A DNA stretch of 41,326 nt from a virus: the IMG/VR virus record IMGVR_UViG_3300026521_000232, positions 1 to 41,326 of that record; one strand, 5' to 3'. Below are positions 1 through 38,654 of the stretch, one piece after another (within the stretch, counting starts at the first letter, position 1; each line of letters begins with the position of its first letter). The notes under the pieces are model-generated. The model was not told the origin of the DNA. It did no database searches and saw only the letters and a list, made by a program, of their open reading frames with translations. A program made the translations under genes and the position numbers.

Positions 1-451
1 CATCGCTAAATCTTGCACTATTACTTAAAAACTGAACTTGAGAATGAGTTCTAATCTGCTGGTATATGAAATAAGGTGCAATAGCTGTGTACGCTTTATA
101 GTGCGTAAAATCTACATATTTTAGAGCCTCATCTAAAATCATACCGAGATTTAAAAGCTCTCTTAAATTTGTGTGATACATATCCTCTTCATTGTGCGAA
201 AACCCAAATAGCTGGCTGAATCTATCTTGATTTAATTTGTTCAATCTATCAAAATCTACGATACACGGCACAAACGCAAATACAGATGATGCTCTTCTAC
301 CAAAACTCTCTTTTAATAGTCTTTCTGTTAGAGCGTTTGGTTTTTTGATGCCTTTATCTCTAACGACTTGGCAAACATCTGCCAAATATCTGTCAAGCTC
401 CTCACGCGTATTATCTTTCATCTCTTCAATTTTTTTAATTTTGTGGTCCAT
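1..451 (-). CDS. ThyX-like flavin-dependent thymidylate synthase, partial (cut by window edge)
   Basis: This is the N-terminal 150 residues of the gene seen whole at 32213-33010; the C-terminal part lies left of the window. The visible part includes the signature region IRTHSQVQFLSNSARFSD, which corresponds to the ThyX motif RHRxxSxNxxSxR but in altered form. The ATG overlaps the TAA of the upstream 80-residue gene (TAATG), so the two are translationally coupled. It differs from the second copy by only a few bases. The function is discussed at the complete copy. Confidence 0.65.
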   Translation of the reverse strand, partial: MDHKIKKIEEMKDNTREELDRYLADVCQVVRDKGIKKPNALTERLLKESFGRRASSVFAFVPCIVDFDRLNKLNQDRFSQLFGFSHNEEDMYHTNLRELLNLGMILDEALKYVDFTHYKAYTAIAPYFIYQQIRTHSQVQFLSNSARFSD

Positions 452-693
452 TATATTTCACCATCTTGCAGTCTTTTTATTGTTACGGTAGACATTAGAG
501 ACAATTCGCTCTCTCTTGCTTCAAGCTCATCTATCTTACCTCTAAGTTCCGACAATATCTTCTCAATATCATCATTTCTATTTCTAGATGTAGCAAATGC
601 TAATGATTTTCTACGCACATTCAACAGCTTTCTCTCTGTTACAACTTCACATAATTCACGATTAATTTTTCTGTATTCACCCTCAAGTGTCAT
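451..693 (-). CDS. Small charged coiled-coil protein, unknown function
   Basis: An 80-residue protein that I do not recognise. It is rich in Glu, Arg and Lys, and residues 1-65 have the spacing of a helical coiled coil (RKINRELCEVVTERKLL, then DDIEKILSELRGKIDEL). It lies between a 67-residue gene and the ThyX-like gene and overlaps the latter's ATG, so it belongs to the operon read from the promoter at 1353-1381. The second copy at 33010-33252 matches at only about 70 percent of residues, much less than its neighbours, so it evolves fast. A partner-binding or anti-host role is possible but unsupported. Confidence 0.75.
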   Translation of the reverse strand: MTLEGEYRKINRELCEVVTERKLLNVRRKSLAFATSRNRNDDIEKILSELRGKIDELEARESELSLMSTVTIKRLQDGEI

Positions 694-694
694 T

Positions 695-898
695 TTAATT
701 TCCTTTCTTGGTTACTTTGATGTGCCAAACATCATCTTTTTTAAGTTCTTCTCCAAATTCTAGCATCACCCCATCTACAATAAACTCTTTGTCTTTATTG
801 TAGTAGTGTTTTAGCAATGCTTCGTATGTTCCTCTTCCGTAAATGAATTTACCATCTTCATTTAAGAAAGATGGTATCATTTGCTTTGTGTTTTTCAC
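695..898 (-). CDS. Small early protein, unknown function (67 aa)
   Basis: I do not recognise this protein. The N-terminal half carries the phrase FIYGRGTYEALLKHYY and the C-terminal half looks like a small beta fold (FIVDGVMLEFGEELKKDDVWHIKVTKK). There is no membrane segment. It sits one base from the next gene of the early minus-strand operon. The second copy (33254-33457) differs at six residues. A good AAGGA-type ribosome site precedes the ATG. Confidence 0.75.
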   Translation of the reverse strand: MKNTKQMIPSFLNEDGKFIYGRGTYEALLKHYYNKDKEFIVDGVMLEFGEELKKDDVWHIKVTKKGN

Positions 899-913
899 TT
901 CTATCCTTTTCTT

Positions 914-1321
914 CTACTCAAAGCATAACGGCGTTACTATCACGCATGATTCATCGGCAATCTCTCTTTGTAGCTTTTTAGCTACGTCGATAACTCTTTT
1001 AATTCTATCTGCAATTTGCTTATTTAATGTTCCGATTTTATATCTTTCTTCTTTGAACTTCACATCTTGTGTTTTGTATGCGAATGACACAGTAACACGA
1101 CCTTCATCTAAAAAGTTTTTAGCGTGTTTATAATCCTTGTTGATAAAATCAAGTTTTGAAGTACCGTCTGAAAATTGTACTGGCTTATCATCGTCAATTG
1201 ATGCACCATCAACTACACTATTAACAATGTAATCAAATGTTGCCTCTTCATCGTTATGCCCAAGTATCGTAATCGCTCTAAACTCTTTGTTGTTCTCTAT
1301 TTTAATTTTAAATTGTTTCAT
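914..1321 (-). CDS. First gene of the early minus-strand operon, unknown function (135 aa)
   Basis: The function is not recognised. It is a soluble, mostly alpha/beta protein with a C-terminal helical stretch (residues about 95-125) and the ending VIVTPLCFE. It is the promoter-proximal gene: an AAGGATAAAAAATG start follows the conserved promoter at 1353-1381. The second copy (33458-33880) differs at roughly a third of residues and reads five residues further (WNKRI), because the stop codon is changed. Such rapid change next to nearly invariant genes suggests interaction with a variable host partner, which is inference only. Confidence 0.75.
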   Translation of the reverse strand: MKQFKIKIENNKEFRAITILGHNDEEATFDYIVNSVVDGASIDDDKPVQFSDGTSKLDFINKDYKHAKNFLDEGRVTVSFAYKTQDVKFKEERYKIGTLNKQIADRIKRVIDVAKKLQREIADESCVIVTPLCFE

Positions 1322-1352
1322 TTTTTATCCTTTTTTTGTTTTGATATGTGGT

Positions 1353-1381
1353 ATTGTATACTAATTATTAGTGTTTGTCAA
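1353..1381 (-). promoter_or_regulatory. Conserved phage promoter with spacer operator (copy A, minus)
   Basis: Reading the minus strand: TTGACA (1381-1376), 17-bp spacer, TACAAT (1358-1353), then the gene start at 1321. The spacer holds a perfect odd-centred dyad, ACTAATAATTAGT (1360-1372). The downstream sequence ACATATCAAAAC is also shared with the other promoters of this family. It drives the gene at 914-1321 and those behind it. Confidence 0.85.
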
Positions 1382-1398
1382 GAGTATTTTTAAATTTT

Positions 1399-1932
1399 TT
1401 AAAATCTTTTTATATTCATCTCAATTTTATGATTTTTTGGCGATATTTTTGCTTTCCACTTCTTCAAGAATATAGATTTAAGCACTTCCTCAAGCTCATC
1501 ACACTCAAGAAGTTCAAGCACGTACGACTCTGAGCCAATGCTCTTAATTACACTAAGCTCCCACTTCTCAAATAGCTTTTCGCCGTCTTTTTGTATGTAC
1601 TTTAGAGGGCTATGCACTCCTTTCTCAATCTCATTTTTAGCAATATTTCTAATTGCATTGAGCTTTTTTAGAATGCCTAAAGCATTATTTTCAATCGTTT
1701 TAGGCTTACTCTCATCGAACTCAATCTCTTTAAAACGCTTTGTGAGTATCGTGAACTTCTGTATTCCAGTATTGAACTTCAAGTCAATATGATTGATATT
1801 TTGCTTAATAAAGCCTACATATCTCTCAATATTTTTTACTTCACTCAGCTCTTTCCTAATATCTGCAACAATAAAAGTGCTTGATGTCTTAATATTAAGC
1901 ATCTCACACACGTATTCAATTAGTTCATTCAT
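1399..1932 (-). CDS. Unknown protein downstream of the replication initiator (177 aa)
   Basis: No family is recognised. The protein is mostly helical and charged, without membrane segments or cysteine motifs. It begins MNELIEYVCEMLNIKT, has a central stretch KLNAIRNIAKNEIEKGVHSPLKYIQKDGEKLFEKWELS, and ends in a basic tail. Its ATG overlaps the last codons of the replication initiator by 8 bases, so the two are probably co-translated, and a role in replication (for example helper of initiation or helicase loading) is a reasonable guess from position alone. The second copy at 33956-34489 differs at roughly ten residues. Confidence 0.75.
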   Translation of the reverse strand: MNELIEYVCEMLNIKTSSTFIVADIRKELSEVKNIERYVGFIKQNINHIDLKFNTGIQKFTILTKRFKEIEFDESKPKTIENNALGILKKLNAIRNIAKNEIEKGVHSPLKYIQKDGEKLFEKWELSVIKSIGSESYVLELLECDELEEVLKSIFLKKWKAKISPKNHKIEMNIKRF

Positions 1933-2692
1933 CTAACAACTCCACATCAACAAAATTCGTATTTGAAATGTTAACTCCACACACTTCATCTATAACACGC
2001 TTTCTACGCTCTGCATCTGTTTCGTACGTGTTAGTATTAGATTTTGTAGTTTTAGGCTCAAATAGCCCTTTATAGCCCCCAATTATACTATTCTCTACCA
2101 TTTCCATCTGTCTATCGTGCGAATACTTAGACAATTTATTTGCAGATAGAATTTTTCCTCTTTTAGAATACTTACTCCCTTTGTACTCACACCAAGCATT
2201 GTATGCTTCTATGTTTAGATTTTCAGGCAACTCAAAATCACCTCCAGTATTCGCCTTTTTTTTATTTATTTTTTTAGTATTATCTTTATTGCTATCGTCT
2301 TTATTGTTATTATCTTTATTATTAGTCTTTGATTTTCCTATATGCGTTTTACCTATATGGGATTTTCCAGTATAGGTTTTTTCTGATTTTTCATAATCTT
2401 CATTGTTCGGATATAGAATGTATACATTTTTCCCCATTTTCCCATCTTCACTTCTCTCTCTGTATCTAAGCAAGAATCCATTGTCTTCAAGCTCTTTAAG
2501 TCCAGTCGAAACTGCACTTTGACCGATTTTAAAGTGCTTTTCAATCTCAGACTGATAGAATGTCCAATCGTCGTCTTTGCTACATAAATATGCAAAAATT
2601 CCTATCGCTTTAGCACTAAGTGTTCCATCAAAAATCTCATTGGGGAGTATTGTAAAGTTTGTTTCTAACTTCTGCTTAACTCTATTTATCAT
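1925..2692 (-). CDS. Phage replication initiator / helicase-loader-like protein with N-terminal winged helix
   Basis: A 255-residue protein. Residues 5-95 form a typical winged helix-turn-helix (LSAKAIGIFAYLCSKDDDWT, then IGQSAVSTGLKELEDNGFL and a basic wing). Residues 105-150 are a low-complexity Gly/Lys/Asn linker. The C-terminal part (about 158-215) contains the pattern AYNAWCEYKGSKYSKRG and then MVENSIIGGYKGLFEPK, common at the end of phage replication proteins that recruit helicase. In the lambda O manner, the linker-coding DNA carries tandem 15-bp repeats beside an AT-rich run (2256-2383), a candidate origin. The ATG overlaps the stop of the 49-residue gene upstream (ATGA). Confidence 0.75.
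   Translation of the reverse strand: MINRVKQKLETNFTILPNEIFDGTLSAKAIGIFAYLCSKDDDWTFYQSEIEKHFKIGQSAVSTGLKELEDNGFLLRYRERSEDGKMGKNVYILYPNNEDYEKSEKTYTGKSHIGKTHIGKSKTNNKDNNNKDDSNKDNTKKINKKKANTGGDFELPENLNIEAYNAWCEYKGSKYSKRGKILSANKLSKYSHDRQMEMVENSIIGGYKGLFEPKTTKSNTNTYETDAERRKRVIDEVCGVNISNTNFVDVELLDE
2256..2383. repeat. Four tandem 15-bp iterons and AT-rich run inside the replication gene (candidate origin)
   Basis: Four adjoining 15-bp units lie at 2369-2383, 2354-2368, 2339-2353 and 2324-2338. On the coding strand they follow the form GGAAAATCCCATATA with variations, encoding the repeats GKSHI, GKTHI and GKSKT. They are flanked at 2256-2323 by almost pure A/T with runs such as TTATTGTTATTATC. Lambda-type origins have the same layout: iterons plus AT-rich DNA inside the initiator gene. 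The equivalent in the second copy is 34813-34940. Confidence 0.5.
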
Positions 2693-2838
2693 TTTAATTC
2701 CTCCAGTAGCTTTATAGCCATTTCTAAACGCTTTTGAAGCTGTTCTTTTTCATTAAAATCCTGAGGGAAGTTAAGCTTTTTACCGTAGCTTAGTTTAATT
2801 TGATGGTCGATTAATTCAACCCATTTATCGTGTGTCAT
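2689..2838 (-). CDS. Small protein upstream of the replication initiator (49 aa)
   Basis: A short open frame beginning MTHDKWVELIDHQIKLSYGK and ending KLLEELK. It has no recognised family, looks helical and is rich in Lys, Glu and Leu. Its TGA overlaps the ATG of the replication initiator (ATGA), the classic sign of coupling, and the coding sequence appears unchanged in the second copy (35246-35395), which supports it being real. It is the first gene transcribed leftwards from the divergent region 2839-3121. Confidence 0.65.
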   Translation of the reverse strand: MTHDKWVELIDHQIKLSYGKKLNFPQDFNEKEQLQKRLEMAIKLLEELK

Positions 2839-3121
2839 TTTTATTTTTTCGGTTATTTTTATTAAAGGAAGAATAGCGAAGCACCACCAAACGCAAATTC
2901 TTGAAGCCCTTTATCCAACACCCCAAAAAGGGTGCTGTGCGTCCAGTGGTGCTGGATAAAAAGCTCTTAACATAAAGTATTGATAGTGTAATTATACACA
3001 AAAAACTTTAATATACACTTAATATATATGTAATAATTATTATTTATTTTTTTAACAAAACTATTGACAAACGGTAATAATTAGTATATAATACGACATA
3101 ACAAACAAAAAAGGATAAAAA
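2839..3121. promoter_or_regulatory. Divergent intergenic region with foldable GC-rich segment and operators
   Basis: 283 bp without a gene between divergent operons. Bases 2880-2958 are strikingly GC-rich for this genome and can fold in several ways: AGCACCAC (2880-2887) with GTGGTGCT (2946-2953), ACGCA with TGCGT inside it, CACCC (2919-2923) with GGGTG (2930-2934), TCCAG (2942-2946) with CTGGA (2952-2956), and TATCCAACAC (2912-2921) with GTGCTGGATA (2949-2958, one mismatch). An AT-rich part follows, with a dyad GTGTA-ATTA-TACAC (2986-2999) overlapping a leftward TATAAT (2996-2991). The whole is nearly unchanged in the second copy (35396-35677). It could be an origin, a structured RNA or a switch region. 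Confidence 0.6.
3064..3092 (+). promoter_or_regulatory. Conserved phage promoter with spacer operator (copy B, plus)
   Basis: TTGACA (3064-3069), 17-bp spacer containing GGTAATAATTAGTA, TATAAT (3087-3092), followed by the shared sequence ACGACATAACAAAC and an AAGGATAAAAAATG start at 3122. It drives the plus-strand recombination and replication operon. It has the same architecture as the promoters at 1353-1381, 6039-6067, 29940-29968 and 30177-30205. Confidence 0.85.
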
Positions 3122-3577
3122 ATGGAACAACTTGAAAGACACGAAATTGACTTAATGAATAGAGAAAAAAGAGATTTGGATTTTACTGAAAGACTTAAAG
3201 AGTTCAAAGAGGATAAAGTCGTAGAGCTTAGTGAAGTATTGAAGCAAAATAGTGACATTTTAGGTGCAGTTGAAGAGTGCTGTGTTTTTGATGGGCAGGA
3301 CGTTGATGACAGTGATGTGTGTGACATTATTAGAGAGTCAGTCATTAGCGAACTCCCTTACCTTTTAACAACTGAGCAGATTGCTAAAAATATATCAATT
3401 TTGCTTAATGCTGGTGATAGAATTTGCGTTTTCAAAGGGCTTATTGAGCCATCTTTTTCAGTTCACTTTTTGAAAAATCTTGATGGTGAGTATGAGGTAT
3501 TTGAGTTTAACTCTACTGCTACGTTTAGTGATGTTGTTACGAAAATGAGTAAATACAAAAATGACAGACTTTATTAG
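3122..3577 (+). CDS. First gene of the recombination operon, unknown function (151 aa)
   Basis: Acidic soluble protein without a recognised domain. It has a charged helical N-terminus (residues 1-45), then a Cys-containing acidic stretch (EECCVFDGQDVDDSDVCD), then a more mixed C-terminal part. It lies directly behind the conserved promoter with a strong ribosome site and is followed, with 17 bases of overlap, by a 34-residue membrane protein. The second copy (35678-36133) differs at about 15 residues, mostly in the first two thirds; the last 45 residues are the same, apparently because they share an identical DNA block. Confidence 0.75.
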   Translation: MEQLERHEIDLMNREKRDLDFTERLKEFKEDKVVELSEVLKQNSDILGAVEECCVFDGQDVDDSDVCDIIRESVISELPYLLTTEQIAKNISILLNAGDRICVFKGLIEPSFSVHFLKNLDGEYEVFEFNSTATFSDVVTKMSKYKNDRLY

Positions 3578-3665
3578 AGATATGTTTGTCGTTGATGTTT
3601 TGTATATCGCACTTATTGTTAGTGCGATTATTTATATGAATATAAAAGGGTTAAAAGATGATTAA
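3561..3665 (+). CDS. Tiny single-pass membrane protein (34 aa)
   Basis: A short frame starting MTDFIRDMFVVDVLYIALIV and ending IKGLKDD. Residues 8-27 form one hydrophobic membrane segment, with charged residues at both ends. It overlaps the gene before it by 17 bases and the RecT-like gene by 8 bases, fills the gap between them, and appears unchanged in the second copy (36117-36221). These points support translation. The function is unknown; small early membrane proteins in phages sometimes act on host membranes or superinfection, but nothing here shows that. Confidence 0.55.
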   Translation: MTDFIRDMFVVDVLYIALIVSAIIYMNIKGLKDD

Positions 3666-4470
3666 TGAAGCACTTAGAGTAATTTGGGAAAAAAATAGCA
3701 AAATATCACAAAAGTTAAATGAAAATACTGAACTTATTAAAGCTAAAGTTAGTGAGTTTGAAAGCAATGGTCTAAGATATATTGATGATGACTATTATGT
3801 GTACAGGGGGAAAGGTGGAATAAAAATCCACGAAACCCCAAAGGGGGTTAAAAAGCGTATTGCACAAATAGCACACAAATATAATCTTAGCGTTGTCGTT
3901 ACAGATGGACTTTTCTACAAAGGTGATGAAATTTCGGTTGAGTCCGATGGAACAATCGAGGATATTAAGATTAAAAAAAACAGTAATGCACTCATAATGG
4001 GGGGTGATATTTTAGCACCTTACGCTATTGTTAGCGTATTTAAAGATAGTGTGATGATAACAAGAAAGCTTTTTATTGTTCCGAATGATGAATATATCGC
4101 TATTAAAAATATGGGGAGTGGAAATAAATTTCAAACGATGATGGCGTATAAAATGGTATATAAGCGTGTTTTAAATGGAATTTATTCACTTTTAGGCGTA
4201 ACGCTTGACAGGGTTGATGCAAAAATGATTGATGAGATGGCTGAGAATATGAGAGTAGACAATGAAAAAGAAGATGCGAGTGAAGAGATTGACACGTTAG
4301 TTGAGTCTGAGAAAATTATGGAAAATGTTGATTTGCTTGATGCTGAAAGCTTAGACGATGCAAGGAAGAATCTTATGCGACTGTACGCGTATGAAGTTGA
4401 TGCAGATAGAAAAGAAGAGCTTAAAAAAGCTGGTGTAAAAATTAAGGAGGCTATTGATGCAATTAATTAG
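3658..4470 (+). CDS. RecT-like single-strand annealing protein
   Basis: A 270-residue protein. The middle part reads like the RecT/Bet annealase core: APYAIVSVFKDSVMITRKLF (about residues 121-140), then KFQTMMAYKMVYKRVLNGIY (about 159-178), where the family has its conserved WKKM..K-type helix. The C-terminal 70 residues are acidic and helical. The gene directly before the YqaJ exonuclease supports this, since annealase and exonuclease pairs form the phage recombination module that acts on DNA ends and replication intermediates. The N-terminus is divergent, so the assignment rests on the core plus context. The start overlaps the 34-residue gene; the ribosome site is AAAAGGG. Confidence 0.6.
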   Translation: MINEALRVIWEKNSKISQKLNENTELIKAKVSEFESNGLRYIDDDYYVYRGKGGIKIHETPKGVKKRIAQIAHKYNLSVVVTDGLFYKGDEISVESDGTIEDIKIKKNSNALIMGGDILAPYAIVSVFKDSVMITRKLFIVPNDEYIAIKNMGSGNKFQTMMAYKMVYKRVLNGIYSLLGVTLDRVDAKMIDEMAENMRVDNEKEDASEEIDTLVESEKIMENVDLLDAESLDDARKNLMRLYAYEVDADRKEELKKAGVKIKEAIDAIN

Positions 4471-5314
4471 TGCAAAAAAATTAACTGGAGCCAAACGAAA
4501 CTTCAGAAAATATGAGATGGAAAACTTTGAAGATTTTTCTTTTAAAGATTATGAGATTATCGATAATGAAATTGAGGTGCATAAAGATGAGGAGAGCTAT
4601 TTGCTTGATGCAGTTTCAATTTTTAGAGATGAACAAAAAGAAAGACTTGAAGCTGAGTATAGAGTTAAAAATGTAATAAAAGTTAAAGACTCAACTCAAA
4701 ATCAGGGAACTAAAGAGTGGCTGAATGCACGAATGGGCATTGTTACTGCTTCAGATACACCCTTTAATAAAGATGGAAAAAAAATCCCATCTTTTGATGA
4801 ATATGTAGATAAAAAAGTTGCTGATAAAATCCTCTCAGAGATGGGAATTCAAAAGGAAAATTTCAAATCTGAAGCGATGGAACGTGGCAATGAACTGGAA
4901 CATTTCGCAATAAAAGAGTATAAAAAAATAACTGGTAATGAAGTCGTTGAGAAAGGTTTAGTTGTTGGAGAAGAACTCCCTATCGGTGCGAGTACAGATG
5001 GTATCGCAATAGATGAAAGCTTCAGTAAAGTCAATATTGAGATTAAGTCTGTAATTCTAAAGAATTACATAGCTGAACTAACAAGGGGAACACTGACTAA
5101 AAAATATTATGCACAAATGCAAACTCAAATGTTTGTGCTGGATATTGACGTTACCCACTTTTTAGTACAGTGTCAAGAAGTCGATACGTTCAAATTGATT
5201 ATTAGAGAAGTGCATAGAGATGAGGAGTTTATCTGTAACCTCATTGAAACACTCAAAGAGTTTGAAGTTGCATTTAATAGAAGATATAAAGAGGCTAAGG
5301 CTATGTTATGCTAA
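4457..5314 (+). CDS. YqaJ-family phage exonuclease (lambda exonuclease type)
   Basis: Digests one strand of duplex DNA ends to give tails for the annealase encoded before it. The motifs of the family are in order: GTKEWLNARMGIVTASD (residues 84-100), MERGNELE (141-148), GASTDG with catalytic Asp181, IEIKS with Glu195 and Lys197, and YYAQMQTQM with Gln220. ATG 4457 is chosen over TTG 4454 because AAGGAGG ends seven bases upstream. The gene overlaps the RecT-like gene by 14 bases and the next gene by 7. In the second copy (37013-37870) Arg143 of the ERGNELE motif is Cys. Confidence 0.85.
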   Translation: MQLISAKKLTGAKRNFRKYEMENFEDFSFKDYEIIDNEIEVHKDEESYLLDAVSIFRDEQKERLEAEYRVKNVIKVKDSTQNQGTKEWLNARMGIVTASDTPFNKDGKKIPSFDEYVDKKVADKILSEMGIQKENFKSEAMERGNELEHFAIKEYKKITGNEVVEKGLVVGEELPIGASTDGIAIDESFSKVNIEIKSVILKNYIAELTRGTLTKKYYAQMQTQMFVLDIDVTHFLVQCQEVDTFKLIIREVHRDEEFICNLIETLKEFEVAFNRRYKEAKAMLC

Positions 5315-5874
5315 CAGAAGATGAAGTATTGCACGTTATTGAGCTTATTGAAAATCATACTGCTCAATTAAGCACAAGTATGTTTAAGAATTTCTCCGAT
5401 GCACAAAAAGACAACATTAGAGAGTTCGACAAAGCGATTATCAAAAAACTAAAAAATAGAGAAGTGAAAAAAGTGCGAACTTCACAAGCGAATAAAGCAC
5501 TTCACGTTTACTTTGGGCTTGTAGCTAAAGCACTAAACGATGCTGGATACTCCGTCCAATACGTTCTAAACAAGAAGAAAAATGACAAAATTAAGAAAAT
5601 TCTTGATTTTGTTTTTGAAAAAACAAAGCTAAATATTGTAAAAAATGCTAAGGAGAAAATCCTAAACATTAATGATGTTGAAATACAGTGGACAATGGAA
5701 AATGTGAAAAGCTTGATTTGGAAACCAATCCAAGATGCACTTTTTGAGATAGGAACGACAACGAAACTGGACTCCAAAAAGATAGATGAAGTCTATAAAG
5801 TGTTAGATAAGCATCTATCGGAAAATTATGGAATTGAGAGTATCCCATTTCCAAATAAGGATTATTATGAATAA
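5308..5874 (+). CDS. Conserved phage recombination-module protein, function unknown (188 aa)
   Basis: The C-terminal half carries a pattern I associate with a widespread phage protein found beside recombination genes: IQWTMENVKSLIWKPIQDAL, then DSKKIDEVYKVLDKHLSENYGI, then IPFPN. The middle has QANKALHVYFGLVAKALNDAGY. The first third is helical. No catalytic motif is visible. It follows the YqaJ gene with a 7-base overlap and overlaps the next gene by 8 bases, so it is in the same coupled operon. The DNA appears identical in both copies (second copy 37864-38430). Confidence 0.7.
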   Translation: MLTEDEVLHVIELIENHTAQLSTSMFKNFSDAQKDNIREFDKAIIKKLKNREVKKVRTSQANKALHVYFGLVAKALNDAGYSVQYVLNKKKNDKIKKILDFVFEKTKLNIVKNAKEKILNINDVEIQWTMENVKSLIWKPIQDALFEIGTTTKLDSKKIDEVYKVLDKHLSENYGIESIPFPNKDYYE

Positions 5875-6034
5875 GTTAATTAGAGAGGCAAAAGAGGTAA
5901 ATATGGAGAACCGTAAAAAAGTAGATGAAGCGATTCAGAAAATAGGTTTTGCACTATTGTCAAGTAGAAATTTTACAGTAGCTCAGAAAAGAGCGTTGGA
6001 GGACGCTGTAAATTTATTGAAAAATATTAAATAA
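5867..6034 (+). CDS. Small helical protein (55 aa), unknown function
   Basis: Starts MNKLIREAKEVNMENRKKVD and ends DAVNLLKNIK; basic, helical and without known motifs. ATG 5867 is chosen because AAGGA lies eight bases upstream and the start overlaps the stop of the previous gene by 8 bases; Met13 (5903) with AGAGG upstream is an alternative. A conserved promoter begins a few bases after the stop, so this is the last gene of the first plus-strand group. The second copy (38423-38590) appears identical. Confidence 0.6.
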   Translation: MNKLIREAKEVNMENRKKVDEAIQKIGFALLSSRNFTVAQKRALEDAVNLLKNIK

Positions 6035-6038
6035 AGTA

Positions 6039-6067
6039 TTGACAAATAGTAATAATTATTATATAAT
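6039..6067 (+). promoter_or_regulatory. Conserved phage promoter with spacer operator (copy C, plus)
   Basis: TTGACA (6039-6044), 17-bp spacer containing AGTAATAATTATTA, TATAAT (6062-6067), followed by ACCACATATCAAGAC and an AAGGAAATAAAATG start at 6099. It drives the second plus-strand group, including SSB. Same family as the promoter at 3064. Confidence 0.85.
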
Positions 6068-6098
6068 ACCACATATCAAGACAAAAAAAGGAAATAAA

Positions 6099-6356
6099 AT
6101 GCAAAACGTATACCATTCTGAACTAATAAAAAACGCTATAAACATCTCTACTTTCAAGGGATTTGAACTTACAAATAGTAAGAACTTACAAACTTCAAAT
6201 ATCTCTCTTAAATTCAAATTTTCAAGAGATGAAGAGGTGGAAATTTTGTGTAACTATCACGGAAATTTCATATCACTAAAAGCATCTACTACAAACTTAC
6301 TTAACTCTAATCTTTTAAGATTTATTGAGATTAAAAAAGAATTAGGACTATCGTAA
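6099..6356 (+). CDS. Early protein of unknown function (85 aa)
   Basis: Starts MQNVYHSELIKNAINISTFK and is rich in Asn, Ser and Lys, with a likely beta-rich centre (NISLKFKFSRDEEVEILCNY). No recognised domain or membrane segment. ATG 6099 follows a good AAGGA site behind the promoter at 6039; longer readings of this frame would start inside the promoter and are discarded. The second copy (38655-38912) has one residue changed (Thr to Ile). Confidence 0.7.
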   Translation: MQNVYHSELIKNAINISTFKGFELTNSKNLQTSNISLKFKFSRDEEVEILCNYHGNFISLKASTTNLLNSNLLRFIEIKKELGLS

Positions 6357-6427
6357 TATTTACAGAGCGTTACTCATTGTAGCGTTCTATTAAGTGTTAA
6401 GTCACTAAAAATAAAAAAAGGATTAAA

Positions 6428-6598
6428 ATGAGAAAAATTGTAGTTTATGCACAGACAGGATACGCGTGCAGTCTGGTTGAGGAGATTGTTGAAATTGAAG
6501 ACAATGCAACAGAAGAAGAGATTAAAAATATTGTAAATGAAGTAATATTCGAATCGCTAATTGAGTGTGGTTACTATGAAAAAGAAGAGGAGGATTAA
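6428..6598 (+). CDS. DUF7167-like small acidic protein (56 aa)
   Basis: Reads MRKIVVYAQTGYACSLVEEI, then an acidic part ending CGYYEKEEED. The arrangement KxxVYxxTGYAGS, VEIxDDxTxEEI, then VIFESxIECGYYExEEE, resembles the short phage proteins grouped as DUF7167; the function of that family is unknown. It ends one base before the SSB start, so it is co-translated with SSB. It is clearly more divergent between the two copies (38984-39154) than the genes before it. Confidence 0.6.
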   Translation: MRKIVVYAQTGYACSLVEEIVEIEDNATEEEIKNIVNEVIFESLIECGYYEKEEED

Positions 6599-6599
6599 A

Positions 6600-7145
6600 A
6601 TGTATAATAAAATTATTTTAGCTGGTCATCTAACAAGAGACATTGATATTAAATATACTCAAGGTGGAACGGCGATAGGAAATACTTCTATTGCATCAAC
6701 AAGAAAGTTTAAATCTCAAACAGGTGAACAGAAAGAGGAGACACTTTTTGTGGAGATTGCTTTTTTTGGGCGAACTGCTGAAGTAGCGAACCAGTATTTA
6801 CGCAAGGGTAGTAAAATTCTAGTAGATGGTAGGCTAAAGCTTGACCAGTGGACGGCTCAAGATGGTACAAAACGCTCAAAGCACTCAGTCGTTGTTGAGA
6901 GTATGACAATGCTTGGTGGAAGAGATGATGCACAACAAGGTGGTGGATATAACCAAGCACCTCAGCAGAATCAAAACAACTACCAACCGACTCAACAGAA
7001 AGGTGGATACCAACAAAATAGTGGTTCTGCTTATGGCACACCTGCTCAACAGCAACAAGCACCACAGGAAACAAACCAACAACAAGTACCTGCGTCTAAC
7101 AACATACCAGGAATTGACATCAATGAAGATGAAATACCGTTTTAG
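6600..7145 (+). CDS. ssb: Single-stranded DNA-binding protein
   Basis: Residues 1-108 are a bacterial-type OB fold (MYNKIILAGHLTRDIDIKYT, TAIGNTSIAS, FVEIAFFGRTAEVANQYLRK, GSKILVDGRLKLDQW). Residues about 115-165 form a Gln/Asn/Gly-rich linker, and the end is the acidic tip DEDEIPF-like (NEDEIPF), the docking site for partner proteins in this family. It protects single strands during phage replication and recombination. ATG 6600 is chosen because GAGGAGG lies just upstream and the OB fold begins there. The second copy is 39156-39701. Confidence 0.93.
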   Translation: MYNKIILAGHLTRDIDIKYTQGGTAIGNTSIASTRKFKSQTGEQKEETLFVEIAFFGRTAEVANQYLRKGSKILVDGRLKLDQWTAQDGTKRSKHSVVVESMTMLGGRDDAQQGGGYNQAPQQNQNNYQPTQQKGGYQQNSGSAYGTPAQQQQAPQETNQQQVPASNNIPGIDINEDEIPF

Positions 7146-7153
7146 GAGTTGAT

Positions 7154-7549
7154 ATGAGTTATTTCTATGAAACACTCTTAAATGAGTTTAAGAAAGAAGC
7201 AAGAGAGGAGGCTATAATTAAGCACGGTACGGTTACGCGTGCTTATGTAGATGCAGTAGCGAACGATAAGCTACTAAGGCTAAAAGAAAGCCTCCTGAGT
7301 GCTGGAGGAGATGATTGTCTTATTGGAAAATTTATAGCTTTAGAAATGGAGCATAAAGCAAGAAAAGAAAAAGATAAAATCATAAAAATGATGAGCAAAA
7401 AGAAAATAAAAAGTGGTGAGTCTTTTGAGGATATGGGGATTGTGTTAAGATGCACAAAGTCGAATACTCAATCTGTTTTTTCTAAAGCAATGAGAAAAAT
7501 CTCTACACCAACGACGTCAAGAATTTTTAAGGGGTACAATTATGTTTAA
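7154..7549 (+). CDS. Unknown basic early protein (131 aa)
   Basis: A helical, lysine-rich protein that I do not recognise. Residues 1-35 contain EFKKEAREEAIIKHGTVTRA; the centre has a GAGGD turn and a long basic helix (ARKEKDKIIKMMSKKKIKSG); the end is KISTPTTSRIFKGYNYV. It could bind nucleic acid, judging only by charge. The start has GGAG nine bases upstream and lies 8 bases behind SSB. It overlaps the following 51-residue gene by 8 bases. The second copy (39710-40105) differs at about a dozen residues. Confidence 0.7.
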   Translation: MSYFYETLLNEFKKEAREEAIIKHGTVTRAYVDAVANDKLLRLKESLLSAGGDDCLIGKFIALEMEHKARKEKDKIIKMMSKKKIKSGESFEDMGIVLRCTKSNTQSVFSKAMRKISTPTTSRIFKGYNYV

Positions 7550-7697
7550 AATGATAGTTTGTGATGATGGATATGTGCGTTTTAAATTAAGACGCACAAA
7601 AAGAGGTGAGATACTAAAGGGTTTTATTGAAAGTGGACTACCTAAAAATAGATTTTTTTATGAGATTTATAAGGTATTTAATTGGAGGAGAGCGTGA
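7542..7697 (+). CDS. Small basic protein (51 aa), unknown function
   Basis: Reads MFKMIVCDDGYVRFKLRRTK and ends YKVFNWRRA. No family recognised; net basic with several aromatic residues. It fills the gap between two genes, overlapping the previous one by 8 bases and the next by 4 (GTGA), and is kept open with a few substitutions in the second copy (40098-40253). Both points argue that it is translated. Confidence 0.6.
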   Translation: MFKMIVCDDGYVRFKLRRTKRGEILKGFIESGLPKNRFFYEIYKVFNWRRA

Positions 7698-8254
7698 AAA
7701 AACCAAATAATAATACTCAAAAAGCATTCGCTTTATCTGCGATAATAGGTGCATTGATGATGAGTGGGACGAATGGAGATGTGAAACTAAGTGCATTAAA
7801 AGTGCAAATAGATAGAGCTATGAAAGTGTTTAGCGTCAAAGCACCAATTCATTATTATAGAATTTCTGATGCAGTTAAGCAGATTATTGTTGAGTTAAAG
7901 GAGTTCAATAATGAGGTTACTATTGATGAAGTGAATGTATACATTGAGATGCTTTGTTCTTTGATACCTAAAAGCGATTTTAAAGCATTTTTAGGAGTAG
8001 TGCCGTACAGAACATCTATTCAAGTGAGAGATGAGAAGAAAAGCCGTTTGCTTGTTTCTGTATTAGAGCTTGATAAAATGCTCAATGATGCGTTTAAAAC
8101 AAATGCTACGGCAACAAGAGAGGGTCTTGGAAATATCTTATCAAAACCACTAAAGACAAAAAAAGCAAAAGTAGATAAAAGAGATAAGGCAAAACCAAAA
8201 GCATTAAAGATGATTAAAAATAGGGCTAAGTGGAATAGAAAGAGAGTGCAGTAG
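7694..8254 (+). CDS. Last gene of the plus-strand operon, unknown function (186 aa)
   Basis: The GTG start at 7694 is preceded by GGAGGAG and overlaps the previous stop (GTGA). The N-terminus has a short apolar stretch (FALSAIIGALMMSG), the middle is helical (VKQIIVELKEFNNEVTIDEV, YIEMLCSLIP), and the last 40 residues are strongly basic (KTKKAKVDKRDKAKPKALK), suggesting nucleic acid binding. Its place at the end of the early operon, facing the lysis genes, would suit a late regulator, but that is inference. The protein is the same in both copies (40250-40810). Confidence 0.7.
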   Translation: MKKPNNNTQKAFALSAIIGALMMSGTNGDVKLSALKVQIDRAMKVFSVKAPIHYYRISDAVKQIIVELKEFNNEVTIDEVNVYIEMLCSLIPKSDFKAFLGVVPYRTSIQVRDEKKSRLLVSVLELDKMLNDAFKTNATATREGLGNILSKPLKTKKAKVDKRDKAKPKALKMIKNRAKWNRKRVQ

Positions 8255-8297
8255 AAAAACTACTGCACAAGATTACAACATTGTTGTAGAAATTTTT
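8246..8297 (+). terminator. Hairpin cluster between convergent operons
   Basis: A perfect 9-bp stem GTGCAGTAG / CTACTGCAC (8246-8254 with 8260-8268, loop AAAAA) includes the TAG stop of the preceding gene. Right behind it is a dyad TACAACA-T-TGTTGTA (8274-8288) followed by AAATTTTT (8290-8297). The first stem lacks a T-run, so the second may serve as a weak intrinsic terminator. A third imperfect stem (8307-8315 with 8326-8334) lies before the end of the amidase gene. All three appear unchanged in the second copy. Confidence 0.5.
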
Positions 8298-8339
8298 AGA
8301 GTGTGATTGTAGATGAAAGGAAAAACACCTACAAAATTA

Positions 8340-8891
8340 TTATACACTAATTGAGTGCATAAAGTCAAGTAAACTCTTAATTAATGCCTCTCTTCCTTTT
8401 CCATTTTCGTAAAATTTTATATTTGAAGCAAAAAAAGGCTCAACAAGGATACACGCACTTTTACCCCTACACACAAACCCAGCACCTCTATCCTCGTTTT
8501 TCAAGCTTACTTTTTTTACTCCCCTATCTCTATTTTTTAGATTTTTACTAAAGATATTGTTCATCTTTTTAGCTAACTCAAAACCTTTTTTTGAGCAGTA
8601 TAGGACTTCGTGACCATTCGCATTTTTATTTGATGAAGCATTAAAGTGAAGAGATATGCTTACGTCTGCACCCCATTCGTCTATTCGCTTGTGCAACTCT
8701 TTCATTCGTGCAGTATATCCACTTAATTCGTCGCTACGCTCAAAGATTTCAACTTCAAAATCTGAGCCAATAGATGCCAATTTGACCTCTTTTGAGAGTG
8801 CTTTATAGAACACATATTCACTCATTCCATTTGCACCGTATGCCCCTTGACTGCTTTTTCTGTGTCCAACAACTAATGCTATTTTTTTCAT
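8340..8891 (-). CDS. N-acetylmuramoyl-L-alanine amidase endolysin (Amidase_3 type)
   Basis: Cuts the amide link between muramic acid and the peptide in peptidoglycan at lysis. The fold's zinc ligands and catalytic Glu are visible: VVGH with His10, Glu25, SLHFN with His82, and ILVEPFF with Glu151; the GHEVLY strand (93-98) is also typical. The 183 residues are the catalytic domain alone, with no signal peptide and no cell wall binding domain, as usual for endolysins against Gram-negative hosts released by a holin. It overlaps the spanin-like gene by 4 bases and is the last gene of the late operon. A partial second copy is at 40896-41326. Confidence 0.9.
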   Translation of the reverse strand: MKKIALVVGHRKSSQGAYGANGMSEYVFYKALSKEVKLASIGSDFEVEIFERSDELSGYTARMKELHKRIDEWGADVSISLHFNASSNKNANGHEVLYCSKKGFELAKKMNNIFSKNLKNRDRGVKKVSLKNEDRGAGFVCRGKSACILVEPFFASNIKFYENGKGREALIKSLLDFMHSISV

Positions 8892-29586: not shown

Positions 29587-29913
29587 TTAAAGCTTCCACC
29601 CCTCTCTTCTTACTTTATCAACATACACGTCCGAGAAGTCAATATTTAGCTCTTCAACTCTTTTTAGTATCTTTTCACATCGATACACTGCATTCCCAGA
29701 TGTCAATTCGTATGTCATATACTTATTGTCAATAATACCACAAAATTCATACTCATTAGTTTTTACAACTGTTATTCTCTCGTTGTGGATATGAACAAGT
29801 GGTTTTTCTAGAGTAAAAAACTCACCTTTTGCTTTCTCAATACTGATATTGAACCCAGCTTTGAAAAACTCTCTTGTTTCAACAATATCTTCAAGCATAA
29901 CTCTTTTTTTCAT
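29587..29913 (-). CDS. Unknown protein with its own conserved promoter (108 aa)
   Basis: A beta-rich soluble protein: FFTLEKPLVHIHNERITVVK, TNEYEFCGIIDNKYMTYELT, and the C-terminal NIDFSDVYVDKVRREGWKL. Not recognised. It is directly behind the promoter at 29940-29968 with an AAGGAATAAAGATG start, and it is the first gene of the transcription unit that leads into the terminase and structural genes. Confidence 0.7.
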   Translation of the reverse strand: MKKRVMLEDIVETREFFKAGFNISIEKAKGEFFTLEKPLVHIHNERITVVKTNEYEFCGIIDNKYMTYELTSGNAVYRCEKILKRVEELNIDFSDVYVDKVRREGWKL

Positions 29914-29939
29914 CTTTATTCCTTTTGTTTAGATGATGT

Positions 29940-29968
29940 ATTATATACTAATTATTGCAGTTTTTCAA
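29940..29968 (-). promoter_or_regulatory. Conserved phage promoter with spacer operator (copy D, minus)
   Basis: Minus strand: TTGAAA (29968-29963), 17-bp spacer containing TGCAATAATTAGTA, TATAAT (29945-29940), then the gene start at 29913. It is the member nearest the late genes and may be the entry point of the long structural operon. Confidence 0.8.
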
Positions 29969-30150
29969 GGGTTTAGGTGTGTTTTACCTATCTTTTTGTG
30001 CATTTTTTTATAATACTCAATCAATGCCCTATACCTTTGAGGATAGTTCTTCCTCATATTTGGTATGGAACGAATATGATATTTATAGTATTCACTCAAT
30101 TTCTTATCTGAAACATCATAGGTTATTTTTTTACGTTTTTTTACTTCCAT
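29965..30150 (-). CDS. Small very basic protein with its own promoter (61 aa)
   Basis: Reads MEVKKRKKITYDVSDKKLSE, then YYKYHIRSIPNMRKNYPQRY and ends KKMHKKIGKTHLNP. Lys, Arg and Tyr dominate, so it may bind nucleic acid. No family recognised. It follows the conserved promoter at 30177-30205 with an AAGGAATTAAAATG start, and its stop overlaps the -35 box of the next promoter. The pairing with a dedicated promoter suggests a small regulator, which is inference. Confidence 0.65.
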   Translation of the reverse strand: MEVKKRKKITYDVSDKKLSEYYKYHIRSIPNMRKNYPQRYRALIEYYKKMHKKIGKTHLNP

Positions 30151-30176
30151 TTTAATTCCTTTTTTTGTTATGTCGC

Positions 30177-30205
30177 ATTATATACTAACTATTGCAGTTT
30201 GTCAA
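30177..30205 (-). promoter_or_regulatory. Conserved phage promoter with spacer operator (copy E, minus)
   Basis: Minus strand: TTGACA (30205-30200), 17-bp spacer containing TGCAATAGTTAGTA, TATAAT (30182-30177), then GCGACATAACAAAA and the gene start at 30150. Same family as the promoter at 3064, with one change in the central AATAATTA. Confidence 0.83.
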
Positions 30206-30212
30206 TAGTTTA

Positions 30213-30607: not shown

Positions 30608-31228
30608 TTAAACCATATCTGCAAAAGTTAGCGATTTTATGAAATTTCTCCCATCATCGAATTTCAACGCTGGCAATTCATTGTATCGTGCTAAATGAAA
30701 TTCTTTTTTAAATAAAGCCCATACTTTTCTGTGTAGTTTTGTAGCTAACAACTTGTCATCTTTTGCAATCTCATACACTTTTGTATTTTTAGCGTCCATT
30801 AATGCACGCTCTTGCCAATTTTCAAGTCGTTTTGTTTCCTCAAGCTTTTTCACCCTCTCTTCAACTACACTATGCCCTTTTGCAATAATAGAAATTTGCT
30901 CAGAAATTGAAAGTGGTCTAAGCGACTGCTTTTCAATCTTGATGAAATAATCTCTAATATCCTTACCAATTTTTGTTCTTTGTAGCATAGCTAAGTGCTT
31001 TGCAGTATCCAAAGTTAAAATATACTCAATTCTTGTTGCGTTGTTCGCTTCCATTTTTTTGTGGAGACGAATATAGTCCTCATTTTCAGAAAATAGTGAT
31101 AATTCCTTCTTAATCCACGTGCTAAAATCGCTCTTTAGATTAAGATTTCTATGAAGCTCTCTAGCGTTTACGCTATTGACCTCATCTCTTCCAATAATCT
31201 CTTTGCTAATGTTTATAATATTTTGCAT
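30608..31228 (-). CDS. AntA/ORF6C-type phage antirepressor
   Basis: A 206-residue protein. The N-terminal AntA domain is clear (SVNARELHRNLNLKSDFSTW, IKKELSLFSENEDYI, RIEYILTLDTAKHLAMLQRT, residues 18-85). The C-terminal part matches ORF6C-type domains (LLATKLHRKVWALFKKEFHL, ARYNELPALKFDDGRNFIKS). Such proteins interfere with lysogeny repressors or regulate the lytic switch. No repressor is recognised in this genome unit, so its partner may be a host prophage repressor or an unrecognised protein. A promoter lies at 31248-31275. Confidence 0.85.
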   Translation of the reverse strand: MQNIINISKEIIGRDEVNSVNARELHRNLNLKSDFSTWIKKELSLFSENEDYIRLHKKMEANNATRIEYILTLDTAKHLAMLQRTKIGKDIRDYFIKIEKQSLRPLSISEQISIIAKGHSVVEERVKKLEETKRLENWQERALMDAKNTKVYEIAKDDKLLATKLHRKVWALFKKEFHLARYNELPALKFDDGRNFIKSLTFADMV

Positions 31229-31247: not shown

Positions 31248-31275
31248 ATTGTAAGGAGAGTACGTGAAGTGTCAA
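31248..31275 (-). promoter_or_regulatory. Promoter of the antirepressor gene
   Basis: Minus strand: TTGACA (31275-31270), 16-bp spacer, TACAAT (31253-31248), 19 bases before the ATG at 31228. It lacks the AATAATTAG spacer of the common promoter family, so it is probably under other control. Its -35 box is part of the inverted repeat GTCAAGC (31271-31277) / GCTTGAC (31323-31329). Confidence 0.6.
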
Positions 31276-31385
31276 GCTTTACTACTCTTTAAGCCCTTAT
31301 CAAGCAAGAGAGGGTAGTAGGTGCTTGACTTACCTTTGCTCTCTCTTGATAAAAGCTTAGCGTTAAGAGTTATTAACGCTAATAT
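31265..31385. promoter_or_regulatory. Hairpin-rich region between tRNA and antirepressor
   Basis: No gene lies between 31229 and 31463. Three pairings are visible: A, GTCAAGC (31271-31277) with GCTTGAC (31323-31329) plus inner TACTAC / GTAGTA (31280-31285, 31314-31319); B, TATCAAG..AGAGAG (31298-31312) with CTCTCTCTTGATA (31339-31351), 7 plus 6 pairs with a two-base bulge; C, a perfect 10-bp stem TTAGCGTTAA / TTAACGCTAA (31357-31366, 31373-31382) with a 6-base loop. One arm of B lies in the loop of A, a pseudoknot layout. It may act as leader RNA, terminator or operator. Confidence 0.55.
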
Positions 31386-31463: not shown

Positions 31464-31538
31464 TGGTTGGCAAAACGGGATTCGAACCCACAACAAACCC
31501 CTTATGAGGGGGCTACTCTACCATTGAGTTACTTGCCA
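31464..31538 (-). tRNA. tRNA with anticodon CAU (Met or lysidine-type Ile)
   Basis: A full cloverleaf can be drawn: acceptor TGGCAAG with TTTGCCA, D stem ACTC/GAGT with loop AATGGTA, anticodon stem GCCCC/GGGGT with loop CTCATAA, five-base variable loop, T arm with loop TTCGAAT, then A and an encoded CCA. The anticodon CAU can read AUG, or AUA if the host lysidine enzyme modifies it. The anticodon stem lacks the 5' GGG of initiator tRNAs, so it is not an initiator. In an AT-rich phage an AUA-reading tRNA would be useful. It lies 28 bases behind the HNH gene. Confidence 0.9.
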
Positions 31539-31881: not shown

Positions 31882-32216
31882 TAAAGAGAATACTCTAAAT
31901 CTGGATAGCTCTCGTCCAGTGCTTGCCTAACACTAAGCTTAGAATGTGAATGAAGCACTGTATAGAGTAAGTCTTTATACGCTTTCCACGTTTCAATCTT
32001 CTTTAAATCTGATTTTTTAACTTCTTCTCTAGAGATTAAAACACCTTTTTCGTTTCCAAACTCCTTTTTCCCTAGTCTTGATTTATACTTAAAAATCTCA
32101 AATTCGCACACGTCCACCATTGAGCCGACTGAAATAGTTGACTCGAAATGGTAAATTGTTGCTTTCATATCTGTATCGTAATGCTTACTTTCGTTATTTA
32201 AAAGTGGGTGCTTCAT
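31881..32216 (-). CDS. Unknown early protein between ThyX-like and HNH genes (111 aa)
   Basis: Not recognised. The first half is beta-rich (KATIYHFESTISVGSMVDVC, EFEIFKYKSRL), the second helical (WKAYKDLLYTVLHSHSKLSV, RQALDESYPDLE). No metal or membrane motifs. It overlaps the ThyX-like gene by 4 bases and the HNH gene by one base, so it belongs to the same early operon read from the promoter at 33909-33937. Confidence 0.7.
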   Translation of the reverse strand: MKHPLLNNESKHYDTDMKATIYHFESTISVGSMVDVCEFEIFKYKSRLGKKEFGNEKGVLISREEVKKSDLKKIETWKAYKDLLYTVLHSHSKLSVRQALDESYPDLEYSL

Positions 32217-33010
32217 CTCTCAACCTCCAATTCTAAAGCCTCAACAAACTCACGCGTTTCCAGTTGCGTATGCTTGTCTGTTCTTTGTCTATAAAAATGC
32301 TCAAAGCTGTTTGGATTTAGTGTGTTAAATCCGATAGCAAAAGGTCTAATTTTTAGCATATCTACACCACGATTTAAAATCCCCTTTCGTTTAACCCCAA
32401 CAGATGACATAAAATGCTTCAGTTCAAATGGACTCATCGACTCTACAAGTTTCCCCCACTCAGCATCAATATTTTCTGGAATTATTCTAATTCCACCGAC
32501 TGTTATGTTATTTTTTATATACTCCACAATCTCATTTGGTGCAAAATACCCATAATCAACATCGCTAAATCTTGCACTATTACTTAAAAACTGAACTTGA
32601 GAATGAGTTCTAATCTGCTGGTATATGAAATAAGGTGCAATAGCTGTGTACGCTTTATAGTGCGTAAAATCTACATATTTTAGAGCTTCATCTAAAATCA
32701 TACCGAGATTTAAAAGCTCTCTTAAATTTGTGTGATACATATCCTCTTCATTGTGCGAAAACCCAAATAGCTGGCTGAATCTATCTTGATTTAATTCGTC
32801 CAATCTATCAAAATCTACGATACACGGCACAAACGCAAATACAGATGATGCTCTTCTACCAAAACTCTCTTTTAATAGTCTTTCTGTTAGAGCGTTTGGT
32901 TTTTTGATGCCTTTATCTCTAACGACCTGACAAACATCTGCCAAATATCTGTCAAGCTCCTCACGCGTATTATCTTTCATCTCTTCAATTTTTTTAATTT
33001 TGTGGTCCAT
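32213..33010 (-). CDS. Divergent ThyX-like flavin-dependent thymidylate synthase
   Basis: A 265-residue protein. Residues 129-158 (IYQQIRTHSQVQFLSNSARF, then SDVDYGYFAP) line up with the ThyX signature and following strand (QxxRHRxxSxNxxSxRY), but the first RHR reads RTH and one residue is inserted. Residues 234-259 (NSFEHFYRQRTDKHTQLETR and on) match the C-terminal substrate-binding helix of ThyX (xxLxxFLxLRxDxHAQxEIRE). ThyX methylates dUMP with FAD and folate. The altered motif leaves open a changed substrate or base modification. It is in the early operon. Confidence 0.65.
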   Translation of the reverse strand: MDHKIKKIEEMKDNTREELDRYLADVCQVVRDKGIKKPNALTERLLKESFGRRASSVFAFVPCIVDFDRLDELNQDRFSQLFGFSHNEEDMYHTNLRELLNLGMILDEALKYVDFTHYKAYTAIAPYFIYQQIRTHSQVQFLSNSARFSDVDYGYFAPNEIVEYIKNNITVGGIRIIPENIDAEWGKLVESMSPFELKHFMSSVGVKRKGILNRGVDMLKIRPFAIGFNTLNPNSFEHFYRQRTDKHTQLETREFVEALELEVER

Positions 33011-33252
33011 TATATTTCACCATATTTCAGTCTATTTAGTATTGTAACGCTCATTACATGTAACTCACTCTCTCTTGTTTGAAGCTCTTCTATCCTGTCT
33101 CCAAGTTCCGACAATATCTTCTCAATATCATCATTTCTGTTTCTGCACGTAGCAAGTGCTAGTGACTCTCTTTCTATATTTAATAGCTTTCTCTCTGTTG
33201 TAGCATCACATAATTCACGATTAATTTTTCTGTATTCACCCTCAAGTGTCAT
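33010..33252 (-). CDS. Small charged coiled-coil protein, second copy (80 aa)
   Basis: Counterpart of 451-693, with about 23 of 80 residues different (for example CDATTERKLLNIERES against CEVVTERKLLNVRRKS). The helical charged nature is kept, and its stop overlaps the ThyX-like ATG in the same way. The high rate of change at constant length points to selection on a partner surface or to exchange with another phage. Confidence 0.75.
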   Translation of the reverse strand: MTLEGEYRKINRELCDATTERKLLNIERESLALATCRNRNDDIEKILSELGDRIEELQTRESELHVMSVTILNRLKYGEI

Positions 33253-33253
33253 T

Positions 33254-33457
33254 TTAATTTCCTTTCTTGGTTACTTTGATGTGCCAAACATCATCTTTTT
33301 TAATTTCTTCTCCGAACTCAAGCATCACTCCATCTACTACAAACTCCTTATCGTTATTGTAGTAGTTTTTTAGCAATGCCTCGTATGTTCCTCTACCATA
33401 AATAAATTTACCATCTCCATTTAAGAAAGACGGTATCATCTGATTAGTGTTTTTCAC
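33254..33457 (-). CDS. Small early protein, second copy (67 aa)
   Basis: Counterpart of 695-898. Six residue changes (positions 5, 14, 31, 35, 40 and 52), all conservative or polar; the aromatic core FIYGRGTYEALLK and the C-terminal KKDDVWHIKVTKKGN are unchanged. Function unknown. It abuts the gene upstream and is one base from the gene downstream. Confidence 0.75.
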   Translation of the reverse strand: MKNTNQMIPSFLNGDGKFIYGRGTYEALLKNYYNNDKEFVVDGVMLEFGEEIKKDDVWHIKVTKKGN

Positions 33458-33880
33458 TTATATCCTTTTATTCCACTCAAAGCACAATGGCGTAACAACG
33501 ATCATCTGCTCCTGTCTTACCTCTTCTTCTAACTTCTTAGCTATATTTATAACGCTTTTAATCCTATCTGTAATTTGTTCATTTAGCGTTCCTAATTCAT
33601 AACTTTCTTCTCTAAAAACAATATCTTTTGCTTTATACGCGAATGACACAGTAACACGACCTTCATCTAAAAAGTTTTTAGCGTGTTTGTAATACTTATT
33701 GATAAAATCAAGTCTTGAAGTACAATCAAAAAACTGTACAGGCTTATCGGTTCCAATTGTAGCACCATCAACGGCACTATTAATAACGTCACTTAATGTT
33801 ACCTCTTTGTCATTCGAGTCCAATAGCGTAATCTCTCTAAACTCTTTGTTGTTCTCTACTTTAATTTTAAATTGTTCCAT
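33458..33880 (-). CDS. First gene of the early minus operon, second copy (140 aa)
   Basis: Counterpart of 914-1321 but only about two thirds identical, with changes spread over the whole length, and five residues longer at the C-terminus (CFEWNKRI instead of CFE). Conserved parts are DFINK..YKHAKNFLDEGRV, TVSFAYK and VVTPLCFE, probably the functional core. It is the first gene behind the promoter at 33909-33937. Confidence 0.75.
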   Translation of the reverse strand: MEQFKIKVENNKEFREITLLDSNDKEVTLSDVINSAVDGATIGTDKPVQFFDCTSRLDFINKYYKHAKNFLDEGRVTVSFAYKAKDIVFREESYELGTLNEQITDRIKSVINIAKKLEEEVRQEQMIVVTPLCFEWNKRI

Positions 33881-33908
33881 TTTTTATCCTTTTTGTTTGT
33901 TATGTCGT

Positions 33909-33937: not shown

Positions 33938-33955
33938 TAGTATTTTTAAATTTTT

Positions 33956-38590: not shown

Positions 38591-38594
38591 AGTA

Positions 38595-38623: not shown

Positions 38624-38654
38624 ACCACATATCAAGACAAAAAAAGGAAATAAA

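Follow-up and report, generated by a model that had tools for sequence, protein, structure and literature searches.

The element described here adjoins the replication genes of a phage, in a virus record of 41,326 bases whose whole length is the window of this analysis and spans more than one phage genome length. Positions 1-8770 and 32560-41326 are 94.7% identical, with a period of 32.56 kb; such like ends may reflect a permuted or tandem genome, perhaps two joined strains. The genome of about 32.56 kb is that of a contractile-tailed phage with sheath, tape measure, baseplate, portal and terminase genes. The closest matches of the phage's SSB protein are SSBs of Nitratiruptor phages and plasmid-borne SSBs from Sulfurovum, Campylobacter and Malaciobacter, which makes a campylobacterote the probable host. 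A PHROGs scan of 39 ORFs of the window (duplicates included) matched an antirepressor and found neither a repressor nor an integrase. Elsewhere in the record, a 265-aa protein (32213-33010, minus strand) weakly matches the end of the ThyX family, and the window has 19 occurrences of GATAARGGGCTT when at most two mismatches are allowed and both duplicated ends are counted, where 5.2 would be expected; the minus strand carries 16 of them, and codon usage may be the explanation. The features of the locus and of its counterparts are as follows.

1925-2692, minus: replication initiator, O-like/DnaD-like (PHROG 678, E 3.7e-18; PHROG 186, E 2.9e-17)
2690-2838, minus: 49-codon ORF without its own Shine-Dalgarno sequence, its TGA overlapping the initiator ATG
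2867-2874, minus: AUUCUUCC, a candidate anti-SD that occurs in every copy, with complementarity to the Shine-Dalgarno GGAGGAAU of the initiator
2880-2895, minus: B3, the 3' strand of form B (folding, pair table)
2903-2922, minus: A3, the 3' strand of form A (folding, pair table)
2916-2937, minus: hairpin D (CAGCACCC...GGGUGUUG), 8 bp, part of form B, with a loop that carries a 1-nt indel between copies
2938-2953, minus: B5, the 5' strand of form B, 16 bp (folding, pair table)
2942-2956, minus: early hairpin UCCAG-CACCA-CUGGA, 5 bp (nascent folds)
2948-2966, minus: A5, the 5' strand of form A, 19 bp (folding, pair table)
2980-2988, minus: segment E, CACUAUCAA, which can pair with UUGGUGGUG of B3 in a fold that includes E
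2991-3000, minus: extended -10 TGTGTATAAT, by its motif the putative replication-operon promoter; the same motif lies at 35546-35555
3064-3092, plus: perfect sigma-70-type promoter of the rightward operon
31251-31382, no strand assigned: element 2, upstream of the antirepressor gene, with similar A-type strands and a two-state fold that is strongest on the plus strand
35395-35681, minus: the element's second copy, with B3 at 35436-35451, D at 35472-35492, B5 at 35493-35508 and A5 at 35503-35521

The element sits between the minus-strand extended -10 and the 49-codon ORF, for which no Pfam or PHROG match was found. From this place, with the leftward motif on one side and the 49-codon ORF and initiator on the other, the replication operon is predicted to have the element as its 5' leader; by this prediction the element should not belong to the rightward operon, whose promoter is located past the element and does not read it. 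The extended -10 is retained as (A/G)TGTATAAT in all three copies of the element, and is absent from the consensus promoter scan because no -35 hexamer fits. Five dispersed promoters (3051-3137, 1306-1402, 6017-6105, 29908-29975 and 30145-30212, with second copies) share TTGACA (TTGAAA at one site), the spacer, the -10 and a short leader whose ribosome site is AAAAGGA. They make up one promoter/operator family of the phage, to which the promoter of the replication operon does not belong.

The preliminary description had singled out 2880-2958 as GC-rich in an AT-rich genome, with at least five overlapping pairings, some of them mutually exclusive, and both statements are borne out. The G+C content of this stretch is 50.6% against 34.4% for the window, only 0.27% of all 79-nt windows are as G+C-rich, and the flanks fall to 22% (2839-2879) and 18% (2959-3121). 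Folding confirms real pairings, several of which rule each other out. The minus strand folds to -38.5 kcal/mol (z -4.55; none of 200 shuffles folded so well) and the plus strand to -27.2 kcal/mol (z -2.5; 3 of 200), because several G-U pairs of the minus strand would be A-C on the plus strand, as the pair tables show. In a scan of 2380 windows of 100 nt on both strands of about 1-35800, the element ranks fifth by z and third by energy and its second copy ranks first by both; together with element 2 it forms the lowest-energy stretch of the phage in the window scan.

Two folds are predicted. In form B (-38.5 kcal/mol), 2938-2953 pairs with 2880-2895 over 16 bp around hairpin D; in form A (-36.9 kcal/mol), 2948-2966 pairs with 2903-2922 over 19 bp. 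The two forms have no pair in common and cannot fully coexist. The second fold was assessed by penalising all pairs of the best fold and refolding, with 300 shuffles per copy: copy 1 reached -36.9 kcal/mol against -21.2 (sd 2.4) for its shuffles (z -6.6), and copies 2 and 3, for which segment E was included, gave z -7.8 and -7.3, with 0 of 300 shuffles as good in each case, whereas the plus strand gave a second-fold z of -2.65. Best and second fold differ by 1.6 kcal/mol in copy 1, by 0.0 in copy 2 and by 0.6 in copy 3, again with segment E in the latter two. A harder null, in which form B was retained while its pairs and loops were reshuffled (1000 sequences), produced an equally good second fold in 2 of 1000 cases for copy 1 and in none of 1000 for copy 2, and a gap as small as that observed in none of 1000. 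Across 8246 windows of the whole record, the only outliers in second-fold energy are the two copies of element 1 on the minus strand and element 2 on the plus strand (GC-corrected z -5.0 to -6.3; next-best window -3.2). By computation, then, the element is an RNA with two near-equal, mutually exclusive folds. When the growing chain is folded by computation, form A comes out best between nt 80 and about nt 100, and form B takes over from nt 104, after its 3' strand has been made. Segment E would be included in the RNA only if the start site lay upstream of the expected one; with a start a few bases upstream, pairing of E with B3 could favour form A (-41.2 vs -38.7 in copy 1). CAGCACC is present twice inside the element, and such internal repeats ease alternative pairing.

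A third copy is found in the IMG/VR contig IMGVR_UViG_3300037333_000060. The two copies within the window probably stem from one phage genome present in the versions of two strains, or from genomes in tandem, and are probably not two elements of a single genome. Among the three copies, 6 of 121 aligned columns vary (one in E, two between E and A5, one loop indel and two in the A3-B3 linker), and no pair of form A or form B is broken: all 25 pairs of form B plus hairpin D and all 19 pairs of form A are invariant, one D pair being gapped in copy 2, and the variant in E of copies 2 and 3 is a C-to-U change that retains pairing as U-G. The earlier statement that stems are kept while an indel falls in a loop thus stands as regards the indel, which lies in a hairpin loop; retention of the stems is weak evidence, as no pair of form A or B varies at all, and with three near-identical copies covariation says nothing for or against the folds.

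The failure of the preliminary description to match a known RNA class holds up in a covariance-model scan, which assigned the element to no Rfam family. Rfam includes a C4 family model. With Rfam 15 at gathering score, only a tRNA was detected in the window, and at E values up to 10 the region 2700-3140 gave three weak matches far under the gathering scores. The order A5-B5-D-A3-B3 resembles that of an HDV-like ribozyme, a nested pseudoknot with a 3-bp P3 with a long loop, a 7-bp P1 and a P4 stem; this candidate was rejected on the 8 bp of D, the 13-19 bp of A, the lack of a P4 stem and the lack of an Rfam match. A type I toxin mRNA or leader peptide was likewise rejected, as the ORF within the element is not conserved (ATG to ATA plus a frameshift in copy 2).

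Searches for relatives point to a narrow distribution. No diverged homologue was found in scans of viral contigs and bacterial genomes or in genome-set searches with the RNA model. Among viral contigs, the initiator and the 151-aa, 270-aa and 265-aa proteins matched only IMGVR_UViG_3300037333_000060, as did an 18-mer, while the YqaJ protein matched this contig and 15 distant ones; a 16-mer hit 17 stretches, of which the other 16 had no match to the RNA model. Terminase relatives numbered 122 in viral contigs, of which 80 were kept; 47 of these 80 records were searched with the initiator and the element, and none of them contains the latter in homologous form. About 30 bases matched in one record (L008) but were rejected as a relative, since they fall within its terminase match. 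Bacterial genome contigs yielded no relatives of the initiator and six of the terminase. In two sets of 397 and 175 bacterial genomes, drawn from the phylum and family of an Epsilonproteobacteria bacterium genome, the RNA model R1 gave E values up to 1 in 36 of the 397 (below chance expectation; best 0.017), and a match at 0.006 in one of the 175 was rejected because by eye it resembles coding sequence. The initiator protein was matched in 33 of the 397 genomes; nine upstream DNAs from the eleven best initiator loci (two had no tblastn match) show no similar leader by eye, and L115-L123 also gave no R1 match. Plasmids contained no match to the element and phages a single chance match. Within the collections searched, the element occurs in a single phage lineage.

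Element 2 lies upstream of the antirepressor gene (ant; 30608-31228, minus; PHROG 5817, E 4.6e-29) and downstream of a tRNA gene (31464-31538), and is flanked by an inverted repeat at 31357-31382. Its minus strand carries AGCTTTTATC...GATAAGGGCTTAAAGA, like A5 and A3 of element 1, and these A-type strands have the same U-U/G-G wobble with one base pair fewer; on its plus strand, a second fold as good arose in 1 of 500 sequences of the kept-structure null. The single best local alignment of the two elements reaches only p 0.0255, and gapped alignment of the whole elements p 0.003 and 0.0015 under two gap settings (scores 40.0 and 37.4, against 25.0 and 24.5 in the opposite orientation). Kinship of the two is plausible, and we claim no common mechanism for them. 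Pairing of their minus-strand RNAs with each other does not exceed that of shuffles. When element 1 was scanned for duplexes across the genome, the start of ant did not stand out; the top score fell on a G+C-rich tRNA stretch, which was rejected as a trans target. Between the tRNA gene and element 2, a seven-codon ORF, MKKSILA, with the ribosome site AAAGGA (31443-31420, minus) is kept in two related contigs and is a possible leader peptide. Two related contigs have an ORF of about 200 aa and unknown family between element 2 and ant (L006, 941-1555), which is missing from the window at that place (31235-31204, minus).

We propose that the element is a cis-acting, two-state leader RNA switch of the replication operon, a reading to which we assign a probability of about 0.5. 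The minus-strand transcript would start near 2984-2990, with the element as a 5' leader of about 145-150 nt followed by the small ORF and the initiator. During synthesis A5 and A3 would pair first to give form A; some 20 nt later B3 would emerge and capture B5 from form A by strand exchange, beginning at the free UGGACGCA stretch, to give form B with hairpin D. The form that persists would set the expression level of the operon, and a phage or host factor, or another RNA such as that of element 2, would tip the balance. Candidate outputs are read-through, mRNA stability or processing, and initiator translation. As to the last, the initiator Shine-Dalgarno is predicted to be mostly paired when either form is imposed, and pairing of AUUCUUCC with GGAGGAAU was rejected as a readout because it shows no clear difference between forms A and B; as to read-through, no minus-strand terminator-like site was found in 2693-2960 by a search for canonical, Rho-independent sites. 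What the computations show is the strand preference, the two disjoint folds of similar energy, their order of folding and their retention in three copies; transcription of the element, the existence of both forms in the cell and a regulatory role are what we infer.

The main competitor of the proposed switch, in our view a rather unlikely one, is a plain structured leader, in which the long 5' hairpin of form B would only protect the mRNA or keep the AU-rich start region open, with form A as a by-product of the internal repeats. Such a leader would agree with form B being the computed end state from the expected start site and with the start of the small ORF being mostly unpaired in both predicted forms, but the stability of form A goes well beyond what a reshuffled stem would yield as a by-product (the 2 of 1000 and 0 of 1000 given above). 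The alternatives of the preliminary description (a replication origin, a regulatory RNA or a switch) fare unequally. A regulatory RNA or switch is favoured by computation only, through the minus-strand bias, the predicted leader position and the two disjoint, near-equal folds that exceed two nulls. An origin at the element is unlikely, because iteron-like repeats (about 2337-2376) lie inside the initiator gene, where they adjoin a stretch of 21-24% G+C; in lambda O, too, the origin iterons lie within the initiator gene, and the 2337-2376 repeats beside the AT-rich stretch are the probable replication origin. Within the element no direct repeats for the initiator were found beyond the two CAGCACC. 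More broadly, a DNA-level element, be it an origin, a single-strand initiation hairpin or a mobile palindromic insertion, would agree with the interleaved inverted repeats next to the initiator gene and with a G+C content unlike the surroundings; the location of the iteron-like repeats, a strand bias that arises through G-U pairs and so points to RNA, and the lack of further copies in the plasmids, phages and genomes searched make it distinctly improbable.

Two kinds of phage RNA offer further alternatives to the cis-acting switch. One is RNA immunity, in which a small RNA cut from the leader would pair with the same or a related leader and stop replication or antirepressor genes. The P4 CI RNA, as described in PMC4825925, is made from a transcript that is not translated and silences replication genes through pairing with stretches on either side of itself, and the C4 RNA, according to PMC12197685, targets ant mRNA and so controls ant. 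The arrangement here, with one element before the replication operon and a similar one (by the whole-element alignments) upstream of an antirepressor gene in a phage whose scanned ORFs include neither repressor nor integrase, is suggestive of such systems. Against this stand the lack of an Rfam match even at the loose threshold, the lack of a terminator-like site after the element, the better folding of element 2 on the other strand, the p of only 0.0255 for the best local similarity and the minus-strand duplex that does not exceed shuffles; we regard RNA immunity as improbable. A related idea, also a long shot, is that two related two-state RNAs, one heading the replication operon and one ahead of the antirepressor, would give a campylobacterote phage a decision circuit made of RNA, in which the shared A-type strands AGCUUUU(U)AUC and GAUAA(A)GGGCUU could pair between RNAs. 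The other kind is an antiterminator RNA that acts on RNA polymerase, for which HK022 put is the model: as given in PMC9378689, putL lies just downstream of PL, and put consists of two stem-loops and is present in both early operons. The position of our element directly behind the early promoter of a long leftward gene set is comparable, but its pairings are interleaved rather than arranged as two stem-loops, the rightward operon has no such leader, and the leftward genes contain few strong predicted terminators and further promoters, so that this mode of action seems very improbable.

No report of such a leader was found in the open-licence literature, and the leader RNAs of phage replication genes described there are, among those found, mostly from enterobacterial phages. 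If the proposed switch is real, RNA switching of the replication decision would extend beyond enterobacterial phages, to a phage of (probably) Campylobacterota. The element may work like the P4 CI, P1 C4 or HK022 put RNAs and is assigned to none of them; its closest ways of working are those of the P4 CI and P1/P7 C4 RNAs and, for short-lived nascent hairpins, of aapA3. With P4 CI it would share an untranslated replication-operon leader with alternatively pairing segments (PMC4825925), the leader position and promoter being predicted here and the initiator assigned by PHROG; unlike P4 CI, it has no sequence relative found and no terminator-like site behind it, and all its complementary segments lie within about 120 nt. 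The likeness to P1/P7 C4 resides in element 2, which lies upstream of an antirepressor gene as C4 controls ant (PMC12197685), whereas no Rfam C4 match was obtained and the best fold of element 2 is that of the other strand. HK022 putL/putR is likewise a structured RNA of about 70-100 nt directly behind an early promoter, but with two separate stem-loops where forms A and B are interleaved or nested, and the rightward operon here has no counterpart (PMC9378689). In the aapA3 mRNA of Helicobacter pylori, itself a campylobacterote, nascent hairpins hide the toxin's Shine-Dalgarno (PMC6733600); the element resembles it in its predicted succession of short-lived nascent hairpins and a later fold, and differs in having no conserved peptide and no ribosome site within it.
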